Assembly: GCF_009834915.1 (NCBI RefSeq)
Contig: NZ_WVHS01000002.1
Location: 992,001-1,056,000, forward strand
Direction of reading: 5' to 3'
Source of the DNA: Hufsiella ginkgonis
GTDB taxonomy: Bacteria; Bacteroidota; Bacteroidia; Sphingobacteriales; Sphingobacteriaceae
DNA length: 64,000 nucleotides
A model generated the notes under the pieces. It was not told the origin of the DNA. It worked only from the letters and a program-made list of their open reading frames with translations, and searched no databases. Shown here one piece after another: positions 3,475 to 29,334 of the stretch. How positions within the stretch are numbered: position 1 is the first letter of the stretch; each line of letters begins with the position of its first letter. The translations under genes were made by a program, and so were the position numbers.

Positions 3475-3549
3475 GTTTGTTTGTTTTTGGCGGACGGCGC
3501 TCTTGTTACAGAAACTTAATACCGAAAGCCTGGGTTAAAAATTAATTAA

Positions 3550-21020: not shown

Positions 21021-22469
21021 CTAAAATTCCGCATTCTTCGGCGTTCTCGGGAAAGGGATCACATCGCGGATATTGGTCATGCCGGTAACGAACAGCACCA
21101 GTCGTTCAAATCCCAGTCCGAAACCTGAATGCGGCACCGAGCCGAAGCGCCGGGTATCCAGGTACCAGTCCATCTCGTGCCTGGGAATTCCAATTTCATC
21201 CATGCGGCCTACCAGGTGATCGTAGCGTTCTTCGCGTTGCGAGCCGCCAACGATCTCCCCGATGCCGGGAAAGAGGATGTCCATGGCGCGTACCGTTCTC
21301 CTGCCCTGCGCATCCGGGTCGTTCAGGCGCATGTAAAAAGATTTGATGTCTGCGGGGTAATCCGTCAGGATCACCGGCTTCTTATAGTGTTTTTCTACGA
21401 GGTAGCGCTCATGTTCCGATTGCAGGTCGGCGCCCCAGCCTTCGATGGGGTATTTGAACTGTTTCTTCTGGTTAGGTTTCGAGTTCCTTAACACTTCAAC
21501 GGCTTCCGTATAAGTGAGGCGTTCAAATTCATTTTCCAGGCAGAAATTAAGTTTGGCGATCAGGTCGAGGTCCGAGCGCTCATTCTGGGGTTTCGATTTC
21601 TCTTCTTCCAGTAAGCGGTTCCGTAAAAACTCCAGTTCATCTGGGCAATTTTCCAATGCCGTTTTGATCACATATTTCAGCAATTCTTCGGCGAGGTCCA
21701 TGTTGTCGCGGATATCGTAGAAAGCCATTTCCGGCTCAATCATCCAGAACTCGGCAAGGTGACGGGTAGTGTTCGAATTTTCCGCCCTGAAGGTAGGTCC
21801 GAACGTATAAATATCGCTGAACGCCATCGCGGCCAGCTCGCCTTCAAGCTGACCTGACACCGTAAGGTTGGTCGGTTTTCCAAAGAAATCGGCTGTATAA
21901 TCTACCGTGCCGTCTTCGTTACGCGGAATGTTATCGAAATCGATCGTCGATACGCGGAACATTTCGCCGGCGCCTTCGGCATCAGACCCCGTGATCACAG
22001 GCGTGTGCATGTACACGAACCCCTTGCTGTAGAAGAACTGGTGTACCGCAAACGCGAGATGATGCCTGATCTTAAAAACCGCGTTAAATGTGTTGGTGCG
22101 GAACCGCAGGTGTGCAATTTCCCGTAAAAATTCGAGGCTGTGTTTTTTGGGCTGCAGCGGAAACTTCTCGGCATCACTGTCGCCCAGTATTTCGAGTTCC
22201 GTAACCTTTACCTCCACACGCTGCCCTTTCCCCAGCGATTCCACCAGCTCGCCGGTCACAGAAACTGCCGCTCCGGTGGTTAAACGTTTCAATAGCGCTT
22301 CGCCGGTATGCTCAAAATCAACTACCGCCTGGATATTATTCAGGGTCGAACCATCGTTGATAGCGATAAACCGGTCATTCCTGAAAGTTTTTACCCAGCC
22401 CTTTACTACCACCTGGCGGCCGAATTCTGTTGACGATAAGAGATCTTTAATCTTAGTGCGCTTCATCAT
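21021..22469 (-). CDS. asnS: Asparagine--tRNA ligase
   Basis: 482 residues from the first ATG of the pair at 22464-22469. OB-fold anticodon domain ([12 protein letters not shown]), then class II core with [15 protein letters not shown] (motif 2) and [14 protein letters not shown] (motif 3). The frame stays open upstream to 22742, but that extension is antisense to tRNA-Leu and the repeat, so it is not real. A TATTTTTG (22534-22527) is a candidate -7 box giving a leader of about 50 bases. Confidence 0.97.
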
Positions 22470-22472
22470 GAG

Positions 22473-22585
22473 TGTACGTTTGACGTAATACATTGTATGT
22501 TTACGTGACTTGTCTTGTGTTCCCCGCAAAAATACAAATAGGGGCGGCATTAGGAAATACGTTTGACGTTGTACGCTATACGTTA
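22473..22585. repeat. ACGT-type repeat upstream of asnS
   Basis: GTACGTTTGACGTAATAC near 22473-22490 and ATACGTTTGACGTTGTACG near 22557-22575, with further TACGT words. It spans the asnS promoter/leader region, so it is transcribed in part. Confidence 0.75.
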
Positions 22586-22592
22586 AAAAAGA

Positions 22593-22623
22593 TTTGTGTT
22601 CCTGCGACGATTTCTTACCTTTG
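22593..22623 (+). promoter_or_regulatory. Promoter of tRNA-Leu
   Basis: TTTG (22593-22596), 19 bases, TACCTTTG (22616-22623): a full match to the Bacteroidota promoter consensus, ending 12 bases before the tRNA. Confidence 0.85.
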
Positions 22624-22635
22624 CACTTCCTAACT

Positions 22636-22717
22636 GCGGAAGTGGCGTAATTGGTAGCCGCACCAGACTTAGGATCTGGCGCTTCACGGCGTGGGGGTTC
22701 GAGTCCCTTCTTCCGCA
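22636..22717 (+). tRNA. tRNA-Leu (anticodon UAG)
   Basis: Acceptor stem GCGGAAG/CTTCCGC with discriminator A, D-arm with TAATTGGTAG, anticodon stem CCAGA/TCTGG around loop CTTAGGA (anticodon TAG), long variable arm typical of class II tRNA-Leu, T-loop GGTTCGAGTCC. CCA is not encoded. Reads CUA and other CUN codons. Confidence 0.97.
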
Positions 22718-22721
22718 CACT

Positions 22722-22762
22722 AAGGGACACTTCCAATTTCAAAGGCAGCTGTCCCTTTTTTT
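22722..22762 (+). terminator. Rho-independent terminator after tRNA-Leu
   Basis: AAGGGACA (22722-22729) and TGTCCCTT (22750-22757) form a perfect 8-bp stem followed by a T run. Confidence 0.85.
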
Positions 22763-24610: not shown

Positions 24611-25384
24611 CTACCCTTCTTTAATCGACCTAATAAACGCGGGAATGTTTGCAAGGTAGTCCGACGCGCCCAGGATCTTCACAAAGGCGCTTCCCACGAT
24701 GGCGCCGCGGGTGTATTGTGCCGCTTTCTGAAAGCTGCGGTGATCTGAGATCCCGAAGCCGATCATGGCCGGATTTTTTAGTTCCATATCGCGGATACGA
24801 GAGAAATAACTTTCCGTTGTAACAGAAACATCGAGGTTTTTCCCCGTGGTCGCCGACGACGACAGCAGGTAAATGAACCCGTTCGTCAGCTCATCGATCT
24901 TGCGGATCCTTGCCTCCGCTGTTTGCGGCGTAACAAGAAACACGTTGCTTAAGCCATGTTTCCCGAAACAATCGCGGTACAGCTCCTCGTATTCGTACAT
25001 AGGCAGGTCTGGTACGATCACGCCATCGACACCCGCTTCCGCGGCAGCGGCACAAAACCGCTCCACGCCATACTGGAGCACAGGATTTACATAGCCCATC
25101 AGCAGTACCGGGATAGAAACGCGTTTTCGCAGGTCTTTCAGCTGGTCGAAAAGCACGTTGAGCGTCATGCCATTATTGAGTGCCCGTTGGGAGCTTTCCT
25201 GGATAACGGGACCATCGGCTACGGGATCAGAGTACGGAAAGCCAATTTCGAGGAAATCGGCGCCAGCCTTTTCCAGGGCTTCCGCAATATCGAGCGTGGC
25301 GTTCAGCTCCGGGTAACCGGCAGTAAAATAGATGGAAAGTATGGGTTCTTTTTTGGTGTCGAAAAGTTGATTGAGTCTGTTCAT
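24611..25384 (-). CDS. trpA: Tryptophan synthase alpha chain
   Basis: 257 residues. Catalytic Glu and Asp lie in FLEIGFPYSDPVADGPVIQ; phosphate site GFGISDHRSF. Cleaves indole-3-glycerol phosphate to indole, which is channelled to TrpB. Last gene of trpD-F-B-A, 11 bases after trpB. Confidence 0.98.
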   Translation of the reverse strand: MNRLNQLFDTKKEPILSIYFTAGYPELNATLDIAEALEKAGADFLEIGFPYSDPVADGPVIQESSQRALNNGMTLNVLFDQLKDLRKRVSIPVLLMGYVNPVLQYGVERFCAAAAEAGVDGVIVPDLPMYEYEELYRDCFGKHGLSNVFLVTPQTAEARIRKIDELTNGFIYLLSSSATTGKNLDVSVTTESYFSRIRDMELKNPAMIGFGISDHRSFQKAAQYTRGAIVGSAFVKILGASDYLANIPAFIRSIKEG

Positions 25385-25395
25385 GACGGTACGGG

Positions 25396-26577
25396 CTATA
25401 AACCAAAGAATTTCATGTACGTTGCCAGGTCCTTATCCCCCCTGCCGGAGAGGCAAACAACTACGGTCTCGTTGCCGGTAAAGGTCATCCTGTCGAGGTG
25501 CGCCAGCGCATGTGCGCTCTCAATGGCAGGTATAATGCCTTCCAGGCGCGCCAGCAGCAGGCCGGCCCTCATGGCATCGTCGTCTGTGGCGCTCACATAT
25601 TCGGCTCTTTTAACCTTAAAGAGGTGTGCGTGCTGCGGACCGATACCCGGATAATCCAGGCCCGCCGATATGGAGTAAGGCTCTACCACCTGTCCGTCTT
25701 CCGTTTGCATGAGGATAGAACGGCTGCCATGAAGCACCCCTTCTTTGCCAAGCGCCGTAGTGGCTGCCGATTCGCCGGAGTGAACTCCCTTACCGGCGGC
25801 TTCCACCGCAACCAGTTTTGCTTTCGGATCGTCGAGGAAATGGTAGAACATGCCCGCGGCGTTACTTCCGCCGCCTACGCAGGCCAGTACATAGTCCGGG
25901 CTTTCGCTGCCGGTTTTCTCTTTAAGCTGCCAGCGGGTCTCCTCCGAGATCACCGACTGGAACCGCGCCACCATATCCGGGTAGGGATGCGGGCCTACAA
26001 CGGACCCGATAATGTAATGGGTATTTTCCGGGTTATTGATCCAGTCGCGCATCGCCTCGTTAGTGGCGTCCTTCAGCGTTTTGCTGCCTGATGTGGCCGG
26101 GATCACCGTGGCGCCCATCATTTTCATGCGGGCTACGTTGGGCGCCTGCCGCTCAATGTCGACCTCACCCATGTATACCACGCATTCCAGTCCCTTTAAC
26201 GCGCATACGGTAGCGGTGGCCACCCCATGCTGACCGGCGCCTGTTTCGGCGATGATGCGCTTCTTGCCAAGCCGTTCGGCCACCAGGATCTGCCCGATGG
26301 TATTGTTGATCTTGTGCGCGCCGGTATGGTTCAGGTCTTCCCGTTTAAGGTAGATTGCCGCGCCATATTTTTCAGACAACCTTCCCGCCAGGAACAGCGG
26401 AGAGGGCCTCCCTACATAATCCCTTAATAACGCTTCGAACTCGGCGGTGAAACCCGGCTCTCGGATGATCTCCAGGTATTTCGACCGCAGTTCTTCTACG
26501 TTCGGGTACAGCATTTCCGGGATATAGGCGCCGCCAAAGTCGCCATAATAGCCTTTTTCGTTTACGTGATAGCTCAT
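25396..26577 (-). CDS. trpB: Tryptophan synthase beta chain
   Basis: 393 residues. PLP lysine in [14 protein letters not shown], catalytic Glu in AETGAGQHG, and [10 protein letters not shown] phosphate loop. Joins indole and serine to give tryptophan. Its ATG overlaps the trpF stop by one base (TAATG), so coupling is likely. Confidence 0.99.
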
Positions 26578-27218
26578 TATTTCTCCTGCCCTCTTACCGG
26601 GCTTCTTAGTTGTTTAAATACGTTTCTTAGTTTTTCCACATCTTTCAGGCCGGGGGAAACCTCGAAGCGGCTGTTCAGGTCGACGGCATAAAACCGGTGA
26701 TCGTAGTTCGCTTTCAGGTCGTCCACTGCATCCGGGCCAATCCCCCCGCTGAGGAAATAAGGCACATCCAGCAGGTAATTCTCCAGCAGCGCCCAGTTGA
26801 AGGAAGCACCGGAGCCGCCGTGCCCGGGTGTTTTGGTATCGAACAGGAAGTAGTCCGCATATTCAGAAAAAGGCTCCGTGGTATCGAAATCGAATTGCTC
26901 GTTTACGCCGAAGGCCTTGATCACCTGCAATCCATCCGCATAGAGTTTTCCACATAATTCGGGGGTCTCGCTGCCGTGAAGCTGTACCGCCTGTAACCGG
27001 AACTTTTCCACATTTGCGATAATTTCGTCGTAACCGGAATCCACAAACACACCGGTAGTAATAATATCTTCCGGCAGCGACCAGATCGCCTTTGGCGGAA
27101 GGCCGGCGACAAAACGTTCCGACCCGGGATAGAAAATAAACCCCATATAATCCGGCGACAGTGCTGCAACCGCTTTGATGTTCTCCGGGTCGCGCATCCC
27201 GCATACTTTTATCTTCAT
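26577..27218 (-). CDS. trpF: Phosphoribosylanthranilate isomerase
   Basis: 213 residues. [11 protein letters not shown] has the catalytic Cys7-equivalent, and FLSGGIGPD plus [16 protein letters not shown] are the phosphate-binding and catalytic-Asp regions. Its ATG overlaps the trpD stop (ATGA). trpC, usually next to trpF, is not in the window. Confidence 0.98.
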
Positions 27219-28201
27219 GCTACCAGTTTTTTAAAGCTCTTCATGGCTTTGCCGCTTAACAACGATTCTTCTGCCTTGTAGAAACAATCGGCGAAAGAGC
27301 GCTCGCTGTGAATGGTTTTGATCGCCATCGCCGCATTTACCAGCACCACGTTCGTTTGTTCGGTAGTGCCTTCATTATTCAGTACCGAAAGGAAGATCTC
27401 TGCAGATTCCTTTACGGTGCTTCCGCCGCCGATACTGGCGGCTTCGATCTTTTCGAAACCCAGGTCGGCAATGCGGTGGATCTGTTCCCCTGCATTTGAA
27501 AACGTTTTAAAGTCGCAGGTCAGCGATACCTCGTCATAACCTTCGAGGGCATGCAGTATTGTATAGTTCTTGCCCGATTTCTGGTAAAGATACGCGTATA
27601 ACCGTGCAAGTTCCAGGTTAAATACGCCTACCAGCTGGTTTGCCGGTTTTGCGGGGTTCACCATCGGACCGAGCATGTTAAAAAAGGTTTTCACGCCCAG
27701 TTCACGGCGGATGGGCGCTACCGTTTTCATGGCCGGGTGAAAAAGCGGGGCATGCAGGAAGCAGATGCCCGCTTCGTCGAGGTTACGTTTTAAGATACCG
27801 GGGTCGCTGGTGAACCGGTGGCCGAGGTGTTCCATTACGTTTGAAGAGCCGCAGCCCGACGAAACGCCGTAATTGCCGTGTTTTGCCACTAAATGGCCAG
27901 CTCCTGCCACTACGAACGAAGCCAGTGTAGAGATGTTGAACGTATCTCTCCCGTCGCCGCCCGTGCCGCAAAGGTCAACCAGCTCATAATCCTGTAGTTT
28001 CGGGTCCAGGCAAAGGCTGATCATGCCGTCCCTGAATCCCGCCAGTTCCTCTACCGTGATACTGCGCATACAATATACCGCCATAAAAGCGGCCATCTGC
28101 GAAGGGTTATACTTTCCGGTGGCAATATGGGTAAGGATCTCCATCGCTTCCGGGCGGCTAAATGTTTTATGCTCGAAAAGGTGGTTCAGTATCTGTTTCA
28201 T
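27215..28201 (-). CDS. trpD: Anthranilate phosphoribosyltransferase
   Basis: 328 residues. Diagnostic DLCGTGGDGRDTFNIST and KHGNYGVSS motifs. Transfers phosphoribose from PRPP to anthranilate. First structural gene of this operon; trpE, trpG and trpC are not seen here. Preceded by a 245-base leader region with a Trp-rich leader peptide and an attenuator. Confidence 0.98.
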   Translation of the reverse strand: MKQILNHLFEHKTFSRPEAMEILTHIATGKYNPSQMAAFMAVYCMRSITVEELAGFRDGMISLCLDPKLQDYELVDLCGTGGDGRDTFNISTLASFVVAGAGHLVAKHGNYGVSSGCGSSNVMEHLGHRFTSDPGILKRNLDEAGICFLHAPLFHPAMKTVAPIRRELGVKTFFNMLGPMVNPAKPANQLVGVFNLELARLYAYLYQKSGKNYTILHALEGYDEVSLTCDFKTFSNAGEQIHRIADLGFEKIEAASIGGGSTVKESAEIFLSVLNNEGTTEQTNVVLVNAAMAIKTIHSERSFADCFYKAEESLLSGKAMKSFKKLVA

Positions 28202-28221: not shown

Positions 28222-28253
28222 AAAGAAAAAGGGCTGCCTGTTAAGCAACCCTT
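28222..28253 (-). terminator. trp attenuator (terminator in the trpD leader)
   Basis: Minus strand: GGGUUGC (28251-28245), loop CUUAACAG-like, GCAGCCC (28237-28231), then a T-rich run. Ends about 20 bases before the trpD ATG. The 5' arm can instead pair with AGCAGCC at 28308-28302 beside the leader-peptide stop, forming an antiterminator. No other minus-strand gene lies upstream for it to serve. Confidence 0.8.
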
Positions 28254-28306
28254 CCCAATATCTTTAGTTCAAATTTAGTTCAAAATTGAATACATGCGGA
28301 TGGCTG

Positions 28307-28357
28307 CTATCCTCTTTCGGGAAGCCACCAACTGTTGTATCTGGTATTGTTCATCAT
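28307..28357 (-). CDS. trpL: trp operon leader peptide
   Basis: A 16-residue peptide, MMNNTRYNSWWLPERG, with tandem Trp codons (28330-28325) and stop at 28307-28309. The next ATG (28354) is an equally good start. The segment across the Trp codons (GGUGGCU, 28329-28323) can pair with AGCAGCC (28308-28302), the protector hairpin expected when the ribosome does not stall. Too short to be found by ordinary gene prediction. Tandem Trp codons upstream of trp genes with a downstream terminator make this a strong call. Confidence 0.8.
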   Translation of the reverse strand: MMNNTRYNSWWLPERG

Positions 28358-28367
28358 CGTTCCGCGA

Positions 28368-28398
28368 CAAATATGGCTATTCTTTTTATCTGCTGCAA
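28368..28398 (-). promoter_or_regulatory. Candidate promoter of the trp leader
   Basis: Minus strand TTG (28398-28396), 20 bases, CATATTTG (28375-28368), one mismatch from TAnnTTTG. Predicted start about 28362, so the leader peptide would begin within a few bases of the 5' end. Confidence 0.55.
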
Positions 28399-28446
28399 GA
28401 GTTAGCCCATTATTTTGGGGCACCATTTTTTTTACTATCTTACGGG

Positions 28447-29334
28447 ATGAAGATCAATAAATGGCATAGACGATACAAACACTTTCAACAGGATTTCACC
28501 AAAGGGCTGTTCATTATGATCGGCGTACTGCTTGCTTCGTTCGGGCTAAAGGGGTTTATCATTCCCAACGATTTTATCGACGGAGGGGTAACCGGCCTCT
28601 CCCTGCTGGCGGCACATGTTACGCATATACGGGTTTCGGTTTGGCTGGTAATTTTCAACATCCCCTTTATCATCATCGGTGCGAAACAGATCGGTAAGCG
28701 ATTCGCCCTCACCACTTTACTTGCCATTTTGGTATTGGCAACGGTGATCTTTTTTATCGACTTCCCCGTGATCACCCATGATAAATTATTAACGTCCATC
28801 TTCGGCGGATTTTTCGTGGGTGCGGGGATCGGCCTTACCATGAGAGGCGGCAGCGTACTTGACGGCACCGAGATCATGGCGGTTTATATTAACCGGAAAA
28901 GTGTATTCAGCATCGGCGACATCATCCTGCTGATCAACGTGCTGATCTTCGTGATCGCCGCATTCGTACTTACGCTCGAAACCGCGCTATACTCCATCCT
29001 TACCTACCTCGCAGCGGCAAAAACGGTGGATTTTATCATCCAGGGCATCGAGGAATACACAGGGGTTACCATCGTATCCCCCAAAAGCGACGAGATCAGG
29101 GAAGCGATCATCAATCACCTTGGCCGTGGAGTAACCATCTACAAAGGGGAACGCGGCTTTGGAAGCACTGGCGTACGAAATAAAGACATCAACATTATTT
29201 TCACGGTGATCACCCGGCTGGAAGTCTCTAAATTAAAGGAAGTAGTGCTGGGAATCGACCGCAAGGCGTTTATGGTGATGAATGTGATCACCGATACCAA
29301 GGGCGGGATCGTTAAACGCAGGCCGCTGCATTAG
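28447..29334 (+). CDS. YitT family membrane protein
   Basis: 295 residues from the ATG at 28447 (MKINKWHRRYKHFQQDF); a longer frame to 28294 lies over the trp leader and is rejected. Five to six transmembrane helices, GGVTGLSLL and GGSVLDGTEI motifs, then a C-terminal DUF2179 domain (TGVTIVSPKSDEIREAI, EVVLGIDRKAFM). Function not established; proposed transporter or regulator. Divergent from the trp operon. Confidence 0.85.
   Translation: MKINKWHRRYKHFQQDFTKGLFIMIGVLLASFGLKGFIIPNDFIDGGVTGLSLLAAHVTHIRVSVWLVIFNIPFIIIGAKQIGKRFALTTLLAILVLATVIFFIDFPVITHDKLLTSIFGGFFVGAGIGLTMRGGSVLDGTEIMAVYINRKSVFSIGDIILLINVLIFVIAAFVLTLETALYSILTYLAAAKTVDFIIQGIEEYTGVTIVSPKSDEIREAIINHLGRGVTIYKGERGFGSTGVRNKDINIIFTVITRLEVSKLKEVVLGIDRKAFMVMNVITDTKGGIVKRRPLH

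Follow-up and report, generated by a model that had tools for sequence, protein, structure and literature searches.

A probable ribosome-mediated transcription attenuator upstream of trpDFBA in Hufsiella ginkgonis and its kinship with Bacteroid-trp leaders

The trpDFBA operon of Hufsiella ginkgonis is preceded by a leader that very probably acts as a ribosome-mediated transcription attenuator. We put the probability of this reading at about 0.93, on the strength of the leader's sequence and of its preservation in relatives. The leader encodes a short peptide with two consecutive Trp codons, ends in an intrinsic terminator just before trpD, and contains four segments that can pair in alternative ways. 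It lies in a 64,000-nucleotide stretch of DNA, referred to here as the window, whose positions are used throughout unless another locus is named. The parts of the leader and the genes behind it are as follows.

28396-28398, minus strand: TTG of the leader promoter, -33-like, read in the sequence
28368-28375, minus strand: -7-like box CATATTTG, TAnnTTTG with one mismatch, 20 nt after the TTG
28307-28357 including the stop codon, minus strand: leader peptide ORF MMNNTRYNSWWLPERG, 16 codons, ATG at 28357, TAG at 28309-28307
28325-28330, minus strand: tandem Trp codons UGG UGG, read in the sequence
28323-28329, minus strand: segment 1, GGUGGCU, with 28305-28299 as its partner in the predicted fold
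28299-28308, minus strand: segment 2, in which AGCAGCC (28308-28302) faces segment 3 and AGCCAUC (28305-28299) faces segment 1
28244-28250, minus strand: segment 3, GGUUGCU, in the 5' arm of the terminator
28231-28237, minus strand: segment 4, GCAGCCC, in the 3' arm of the terminator
28226-28254, minus strand: intrinsic terminator, a 12-bp hairpin (28254-28228) with a U-run (28230-28226)
28223-28357, minus strand: whole putative attenuator, as matched by covariance model R2 (57.9 bits, E 1.1e-8)
27215-28201, minus strand: trpD, ATG at 28201 (TIGR01245, 298 bits, cut-off 199)
26577-27218, minus strand: trpF, best models phosphoribosylanthranilate isomerase, under the curated NCBIfam cut-offs
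25396-26577, minus strand: trpB (TIGR00263, 583 bits, cut-off 392)
24611-25384, minus strand: trpA (TIGR00262, 233 bits, cut-off 102)

The original prediction, made from the letters of the sequence, had described a promoter (TTG, a 20-nt gap and CATATTTG), a 16-residue leader peptide with UGG UGG, and a terminator hairpin shortly before trpD. All three are present, with the promoter elements at 28398-28396 and 28375-28368, the Trp codons at 28330-28325, and the U-run at 28230-28226 ahead of the trpD ATG at 28201. A second ATG occurs inside the leader ORF at 28354. The four segments also lie where they had been placed, but the pairing drawn between segments 1 and 2 does not hold because the two segment strings meet in a G-A mismatch. 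In the predicted, corrected register, GGUGGCU (28329-28323) pairs with AGCCAUC (28305-28299), and this predicted 1:2 helix shares bases with segment 2 as used in the antiterminator, AGCCAUC overlapping AGCAGCC. The naming of the operon is secure for trpD, trpB and trpA, which pass NCBIfam cut-offs; for trpF the best models are of the expected enzyme, with scores below the cut-offs. Two observations concern neighboring DNA. A divergent YitT-like ORF (28294-29334, plus strand; NCBIfam match weak only) has its first listed ATG inside the leader on the opposite strand, and the real start codon probably lies deeper in the ORF, around 28450. A tRNA gene with an Rfam match (22636-22717, plus strand) is antisense to the first codons of a TTG-started ORF (21021-22742, minus strand), which for that reason probably starts further downstream.

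How unusual is this arrangement? A scan for ATG-started ORFs of at most 40 codons that contain UGGUGG and have a U-tailed hairpin with an energy of -10 kcal/mol or lower in the 150 nt downstream returned one instance in the window, the focal leader, and none in 40 dinucleotide-shuffled windows. The folding energy of the leader by itself stands out only slightly (z -2.07; 9 of 200 shuffles equally good), so conservation is the stronger evidence. Among 201 family genomes searched for trpD, 185 had the gene; the best 30 of these 185, together with 80 named loci, make up loci L001-L110. In L001-L077, trpD is at least ~68% identical to the focal gene, and these loci are of Sphingobacteriaceae type, as judged from names (for example Pedobacter, Mucilaginibacter, Pelobium) or from relatedness to the genome that contains the window. 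Removal of four that duplicated others across their final 300 nt left 73 distinct loci. Upstream of trpD, 72 of the 73 have a leader ORF containing two or more Trp codons, which in three cases came to light only further upstream; at the 73rd locus (L066), the contig begins inside the leader. Thus, the check for a conserved Trp leader in relatives, proposed with the original prediction, turns out in its favor, since none of the 72 leaders examined has fewer than two Trp codons. The pattern is WWW in 65 leaders, WW in three, WRW in two and WCW in two, and the Trp run begins at codon 10 in 65 of the 72. The focal leader, with WW, is thus a variant within a family in which WWW prevails.

Because these 73 loci are the closest matches, 20 more distant family loci, hand-picked from the lower part of the trpD match list, were added. 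A Trp leader precedes trpD in 17 of them, and the scan returned no leader at the other three (L183, L188 and L191). Nor was a leader found upstream at L081, a metagenome-assembled genome labelled Sphingobacteriaceae whose trpD is more distant. Further away are loci L078-L110, which comprise other families plus L081; within the DNA examined (5 kb, less in four loci), 26 of these 33 have a WWW leader and a terminator upstream of trpD.

The stems were examined in 46 leaders, those left of the 72 after dropping any more than 93% alike. Terminator 3:4 is paired in 97.8% of cells, its covariation is matched by 0 of 500 shuffles, and five of its pairs are altered on both sides (1 of 500 shuffles). 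At loci L020-L022, the terminator contains a mismatch. Stem 1:2 (columns 39-44 / 50-55) is paired in 70.8% of cells, with a covariation of 0.357 against a shuffled mean of 0.129 that no shuffle in 500 equalled; it also has five pairs with two-sided change, a number that is not above shuffles (337/500), whereas the number of cells and the score are. Antiterminator 2:3 is paired in 92.0% of cells, compared with at most 51.1% in slid registers. It shows no covariation in the 46 leaders: all changes are one-sided, and its paired fraction is reached by 323 of 500 shuffles. This is understandable given that segment 3 must pair with both segment 2 and segment 4 and hardly varies. The expectation that segments 2, 3 and 4 would covary was therefore borne out for 3:4, while 2:3 is register-specific but does not covary and is the weakest link of the model.

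How would such a leader control trpDFBA? Transcription would start a few bases before the leader ATG, and a ribosome would trail RNA polymerase through the 16-codon leader. With ample charged tRNA-Trp, the ribosome would reach the stop codon (28309-28307) and mask segment 2, hairpin 3:4 would form, and transcription would terminate before trpD. With scarce charged tRNA-Trp, the ribosome would stall at UGG UGG, masking segment 1 and leaving segment 2 free to pair with segment 3 as it emerges; this would forestall the terminator, and trpDFBA would be transcribed. If the leader were not translated, 1:2 and 3:4 would form and transcription would stop. This is the classic four-segment, E. coli-like scheme of the original prediction, and it is supported by the conserved Trp codons near codon 10, the terminator, the covarying 1:2 stem and the register-specific 2:3 pairing. 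The leader has the hallmarks of a classic attenuator: a Trp leader ORF before trp genes, a terminator before the first structural gene and, judged by complementarity and position, an exclusive 2:3 pairing placed for a ribosome stalled at Trp. Two further points count in favor of an attenuator. The controlled genes are Trp genes, and the trpEGC genes of the same genome have a WWW leader and terminator of their own.

Computed energies are consistent with this scheme. The focal segment 2 x segment 3 duplex has an energy of -15.3 kcal/mol, which 3 of 200 shuffles equalled. Folds for given ribosome positions assumed a footprint of 12 nt downstream of the codon; the energies for E. coli were unchanged at 9 nt. 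When transcription has got as far as segment 3 and the ribosome stands on the second Trp codon, the RNA outside the ribosome adopts 2:3 at -16.3 kcal/mol; for the same transcript, still lacking segment 4, a ribosome on the stop codon leaves a fold of only -5.1 kcal/mol. For trpL of E. coli K-12 (NC_000913), the same ribosome positions give -15.6 and -2.4 kcal/mol. At equilibrium, the full-length stalled focal RNA favors the terminator (-22.2 versus -17.5 with 2:3 forced), and the complete stalled E. coli trpL RNA likewise favors it (-20.3). Hence, the switch would have to be kinetic, depending on timing, as in E. coli trpL.

Could the same DNA be read differently? An ordinary terminator or insulator, with the Trp-rich ORF incidental, would suit both the position of the leader, between trpD and the divergent YitT-like gene, and the strength of a terminator so close to trpD. 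However, 72 of the 73 closest distinct loci retain both the leader and its Trp codons, many of them with no yitT match in the DNA examined beside trpD, and a second Trp leader precedes trpE, so we consider an insulator very improbable. We give the same slight weight to the idea that Trp is sensed without a translating ribosome, by a T-box-like or TRAP-like leader, with the Trp codons kept only as RNA (the GGUGG in segment 1). The UGG run does double as the 5' strand of a portion of stem 1:2. Against this idea, Rfam matches at E up to 10 include no T-box or other plausible sensor, and in the WRW (2 of 72) and WCW (2 of 72) leaders two in-frame Trp codons survive a change in the middle; in these variants, an open ATG precedes the Trp codons and a stop follows closely.

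If the leader is a ribosome-mediated attenuator, is it a known one? Rfam, searched at the gathering cut-off and at E up to 10, has nothing relevant at the focal leader. Neither the T-box covariance model nor the enteric-type Trp leader model (presumably the Rfam family named Trp_leader) is among the focal matches at E up to 10. Bacteroid-trp (RF01692; gathering cut-off 49 bits) has no match in the window or the focal genome. A 2010 study of attenuation in many bacteria by Lopatovskaya et al. may already cover Bacteroidetes. The original prediction knew of no description in this lineage, a view that does not survive at phylum level: RF01692 was published for Bacteroidetes by Weinberg et al. (2010; PMC2864571), where the entry reads "y" under RNA and under cis-regulation. 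In a paper of 2019 on Flavobacterium psychrophilum, the Bacteroid-trp structure is likened to the E. coli Trp leader, and a 2021 transcriptome of the same species is reported to give strong hints of attenuation by leader peptides ahead of amino-acid operons. No description of leader-peptide attenuation in Pedobacter was found in the literature searched.

Covariance models built from the family's trpD leaders connect them to RF01692. Under strict filters, RF01692 itself matches 12 of 101 genomes in the family at E up to 0.001, four of them over the cut-off, and in 11 of the 12 the match precedes the best trpD by no more than ~130 nt; in a phylum sample, it matches 29 of 296 genomes, 27 over the cut-off. 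Model R1, made from family leaders including the focal sequence, finds 15 of 15 tested RF01692 loci (of the 29 phylum-sample loci; E up to 0.0012) and three of three from the family. Model R2, made from 45 leaders with the focal sequence left out, finds seven of seven tested RF01692 loci as well as the focal leader. Judged by these sequence matches, the focal leader is an orthologue of RF01692 members missed by the Rfam model. It is not new in kind, being orthologous to RF01692 trpD leaders. The two share their phylum, their place before trp genes, a WWW leader ORF and a U-tailed hairpin. They differ in that the focal antiterminator is built with the terminator's 5' arm, whereas in ten RF01692 leaders it reaches the loop and 3' arm too. 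In these ten (L115-L124, of 28 distinct RF01692 leaders), the leader-stop region pairs with the 5' arm and with the loop plus 3' arm, for example as GUCGUGA / UCACGAC. In a plain swap test of segments 2 and 3, the 28 RF01692 leaders did not favor their own partner on average.

At two loci outside the family, a single trp operon is preceded by a serial pair of complete Trp attenuators: L083, a Flammeovirgaceae metagenome-assembled genome (at ~2568 and ~2793), and L091, Fulvivirga marina (at ~2646 and ~2794). Each attenuator has a WWW leader and a U-tailed hairpin, and no TTTG box was found within 30 nt before the ATG of the second leader at either locus. Among the matches listed in a literature search that covered few subscription journals, there was no paper on Sphingobacteriaceae trp leaders or on serial Trp attenuators. 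These serial double attenuators, a second, divergent Trp leader and a short distance from box to ATG in one clade are what the present analysis adds.

Comparison with better-known systems brings out likenesses and differences. E. coli trpL has tandem Trp codons, segments 1-4 and similar energies for the ribosome positions; its sequence kinship with the focal leader was compared through Rfam alone, with no match. Unlike E. coli trpL, the focal leader has a Bacteroidota-type promoter near its ATG, is followed by trpD rather than trpE, and belongs to a split regulon with two leaders. The trpL of Sinorhizobium meliloti (rnTrpL), whose RNA is reported to start at the leader ATG (PMC7298713), also belongs to an attenuated operon in a split trp set, and the short distance from box to ATG looks alike. 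In S. meliloti, however, one of three trp operons is attenuated, whereas both halves have leaders in the focal genome. For the focal leader, moreover, the start site is inferred.

The second leader of the focal genome lies at a separate locus, L146, with the trpE, trpG and trpC genes. Its features are given in the positions of that locus.

L146 (G000:C1:577500-583000), minus strand: trpE leader, with box at 3507-3500, ATG at 3493, and hairpin plus U-run at 3390-3362
L146, 1826-3229, minus strand: trpE

The leader peptide is MTNALHTSNIWWWPAQLRREIVVL, which contains WWW, and a 9-bp U-tailed hairpin follows. NCBIfam cut-offs are exceeded by the trpC protein and the trpG-type protein, whereas trpE exceeds a Pfam cut-off and scores below the NCBIfam cut-offs for trpE. 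A search of the focal genome with R1 did not return the trpE leader at E up to 1, and scored directly by the trpD-leader models, it reaches only 22 bits; for this reason, we do not claim it as a member of the same RNA family. A trpE match was obtained in 97 of the 101 genomes of the family, in some through paralogues only. Scanning the best 30 trpE loci gave an ATG-started leader containing two or more Trp codons in 28, and the remaining two (L148 and L170) have, by eye, a GTG-started leader with WWW and WW, respectively. In 20 trpE leaders, the terminators are paired in 95.6% of cells and their covariation is matched by 0 of 500 shuffles. Pairing 2:3 is found in 80.9% of cells (45.5% in the next slid register), with no covariation above shuffles (109/500). 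The pairing sequence in these leaders, CGCCGGG with CCCGACG, is unlike that of the trpD leaders. Indeed, when segments 3 were swapped between the two types, trpD leaders preferred their own to the mean trpE segment 3 in 68 of 68 cases and to every one in 45 of 68 (mean -9.48 versus -4.37 kcal/mol). For trpE leaders the result is less clear: their own was preferred over the mean in 15 of 19 and over every one in five of 19 (mean -9.61 versus -6.89 kcal/mol).

Where does transcription of these leaders begin? The Bacteroidota -7 consensus is TAnnTTTG, as cited in PMC7366714. Of 72 orthologous trpD leaders, 57 have a [TC]AnnTTTG box no more than 26 nt from the ATG, and many relatives (uncounted) have a similar TTG or TTTGCA ~20 nt before the -7 box. 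Of 71 close trpD leaders with a box, 68 have the last TTTG at most 13 nt before the ATG; the median is 8 and the focal value 10. The same holds for 20 of 20 trpE leaders, where the median is 5. Both counts lean short because the choice of leaders favored (trpD) or demanded (trpE) an ATG within 25-26 nt behind a TTTG. Distances of 5-12 nt are usual near the focal genome. One exception is L075 (Pedobacter antarcticus), where a -7-like box lies ~55 nt before the ATG, compared with 2-18 nt in the other 71. For RF01692 leaders elsewhere in the phylum, whose start codon is less certain, the median is 17 and the distance is at most 13 nt in eight of 28. In the 17 more distant family leaders, it is 9-17 nt, and at most 13 nt in six of the 16 with a box; several of the more distant members (L179-L190) have boxes 15-17 nt before the ATG, like RF01692 loci. 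The distance thus seems to have changed within the family. A near-leaderless reading for the whole family was dropped on account of these more distant loci, and the short distance is a trait of the clade near the focal genome.

If transcription starts about four bases after the box, as is usual for a -7 element, distances of 4-12 nt would give a 5' UTR of ~1-9 nt, and mRNAs near the focal genome may thus be almost leaderless. Transcript maps of the phylum call short 5' UTRs rare (PMC7366714, PMC9723704): they report a 5' UTR below 10 nt in about 3.7% for Bacteroides thetaiotaomicron (PMC7366714) and 5.5% leaderless for F. psychrophilum (PMC9723704). A wider proposal is that the clade near the focal genome has a split trp set, trpEGC and trpDFBA, with two Trp attenuators, the trpE type falling outside the listed RNA families, and that both leader mRNAs are near-leaderless. 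Attenuation would then proceed with no real 5' untranslated region or Shine-Dalgarno loading, and ribosomes would follow close behind RNA polymerase. We hold this proposal tentatively, at a little under even odds, having lowered its probability because of the 9-17 nt distances in the more distant family loci.

What are the implications of these leaders for the biology of the family? As far as the literature searched goes, RF01692 is a catalogued and hardly tested family; it is extended here to leaders that the Rfam model mostly misses. The model assigns a putative mechanism to the parts of Bacteroid-trp-type leaders. It also predicts that the split trp genes form a co-regulated regulon. Finally, for the clade near the focal genome, it suggests that peptide-sensing attenuation may operate from almost leaderless RNAs.
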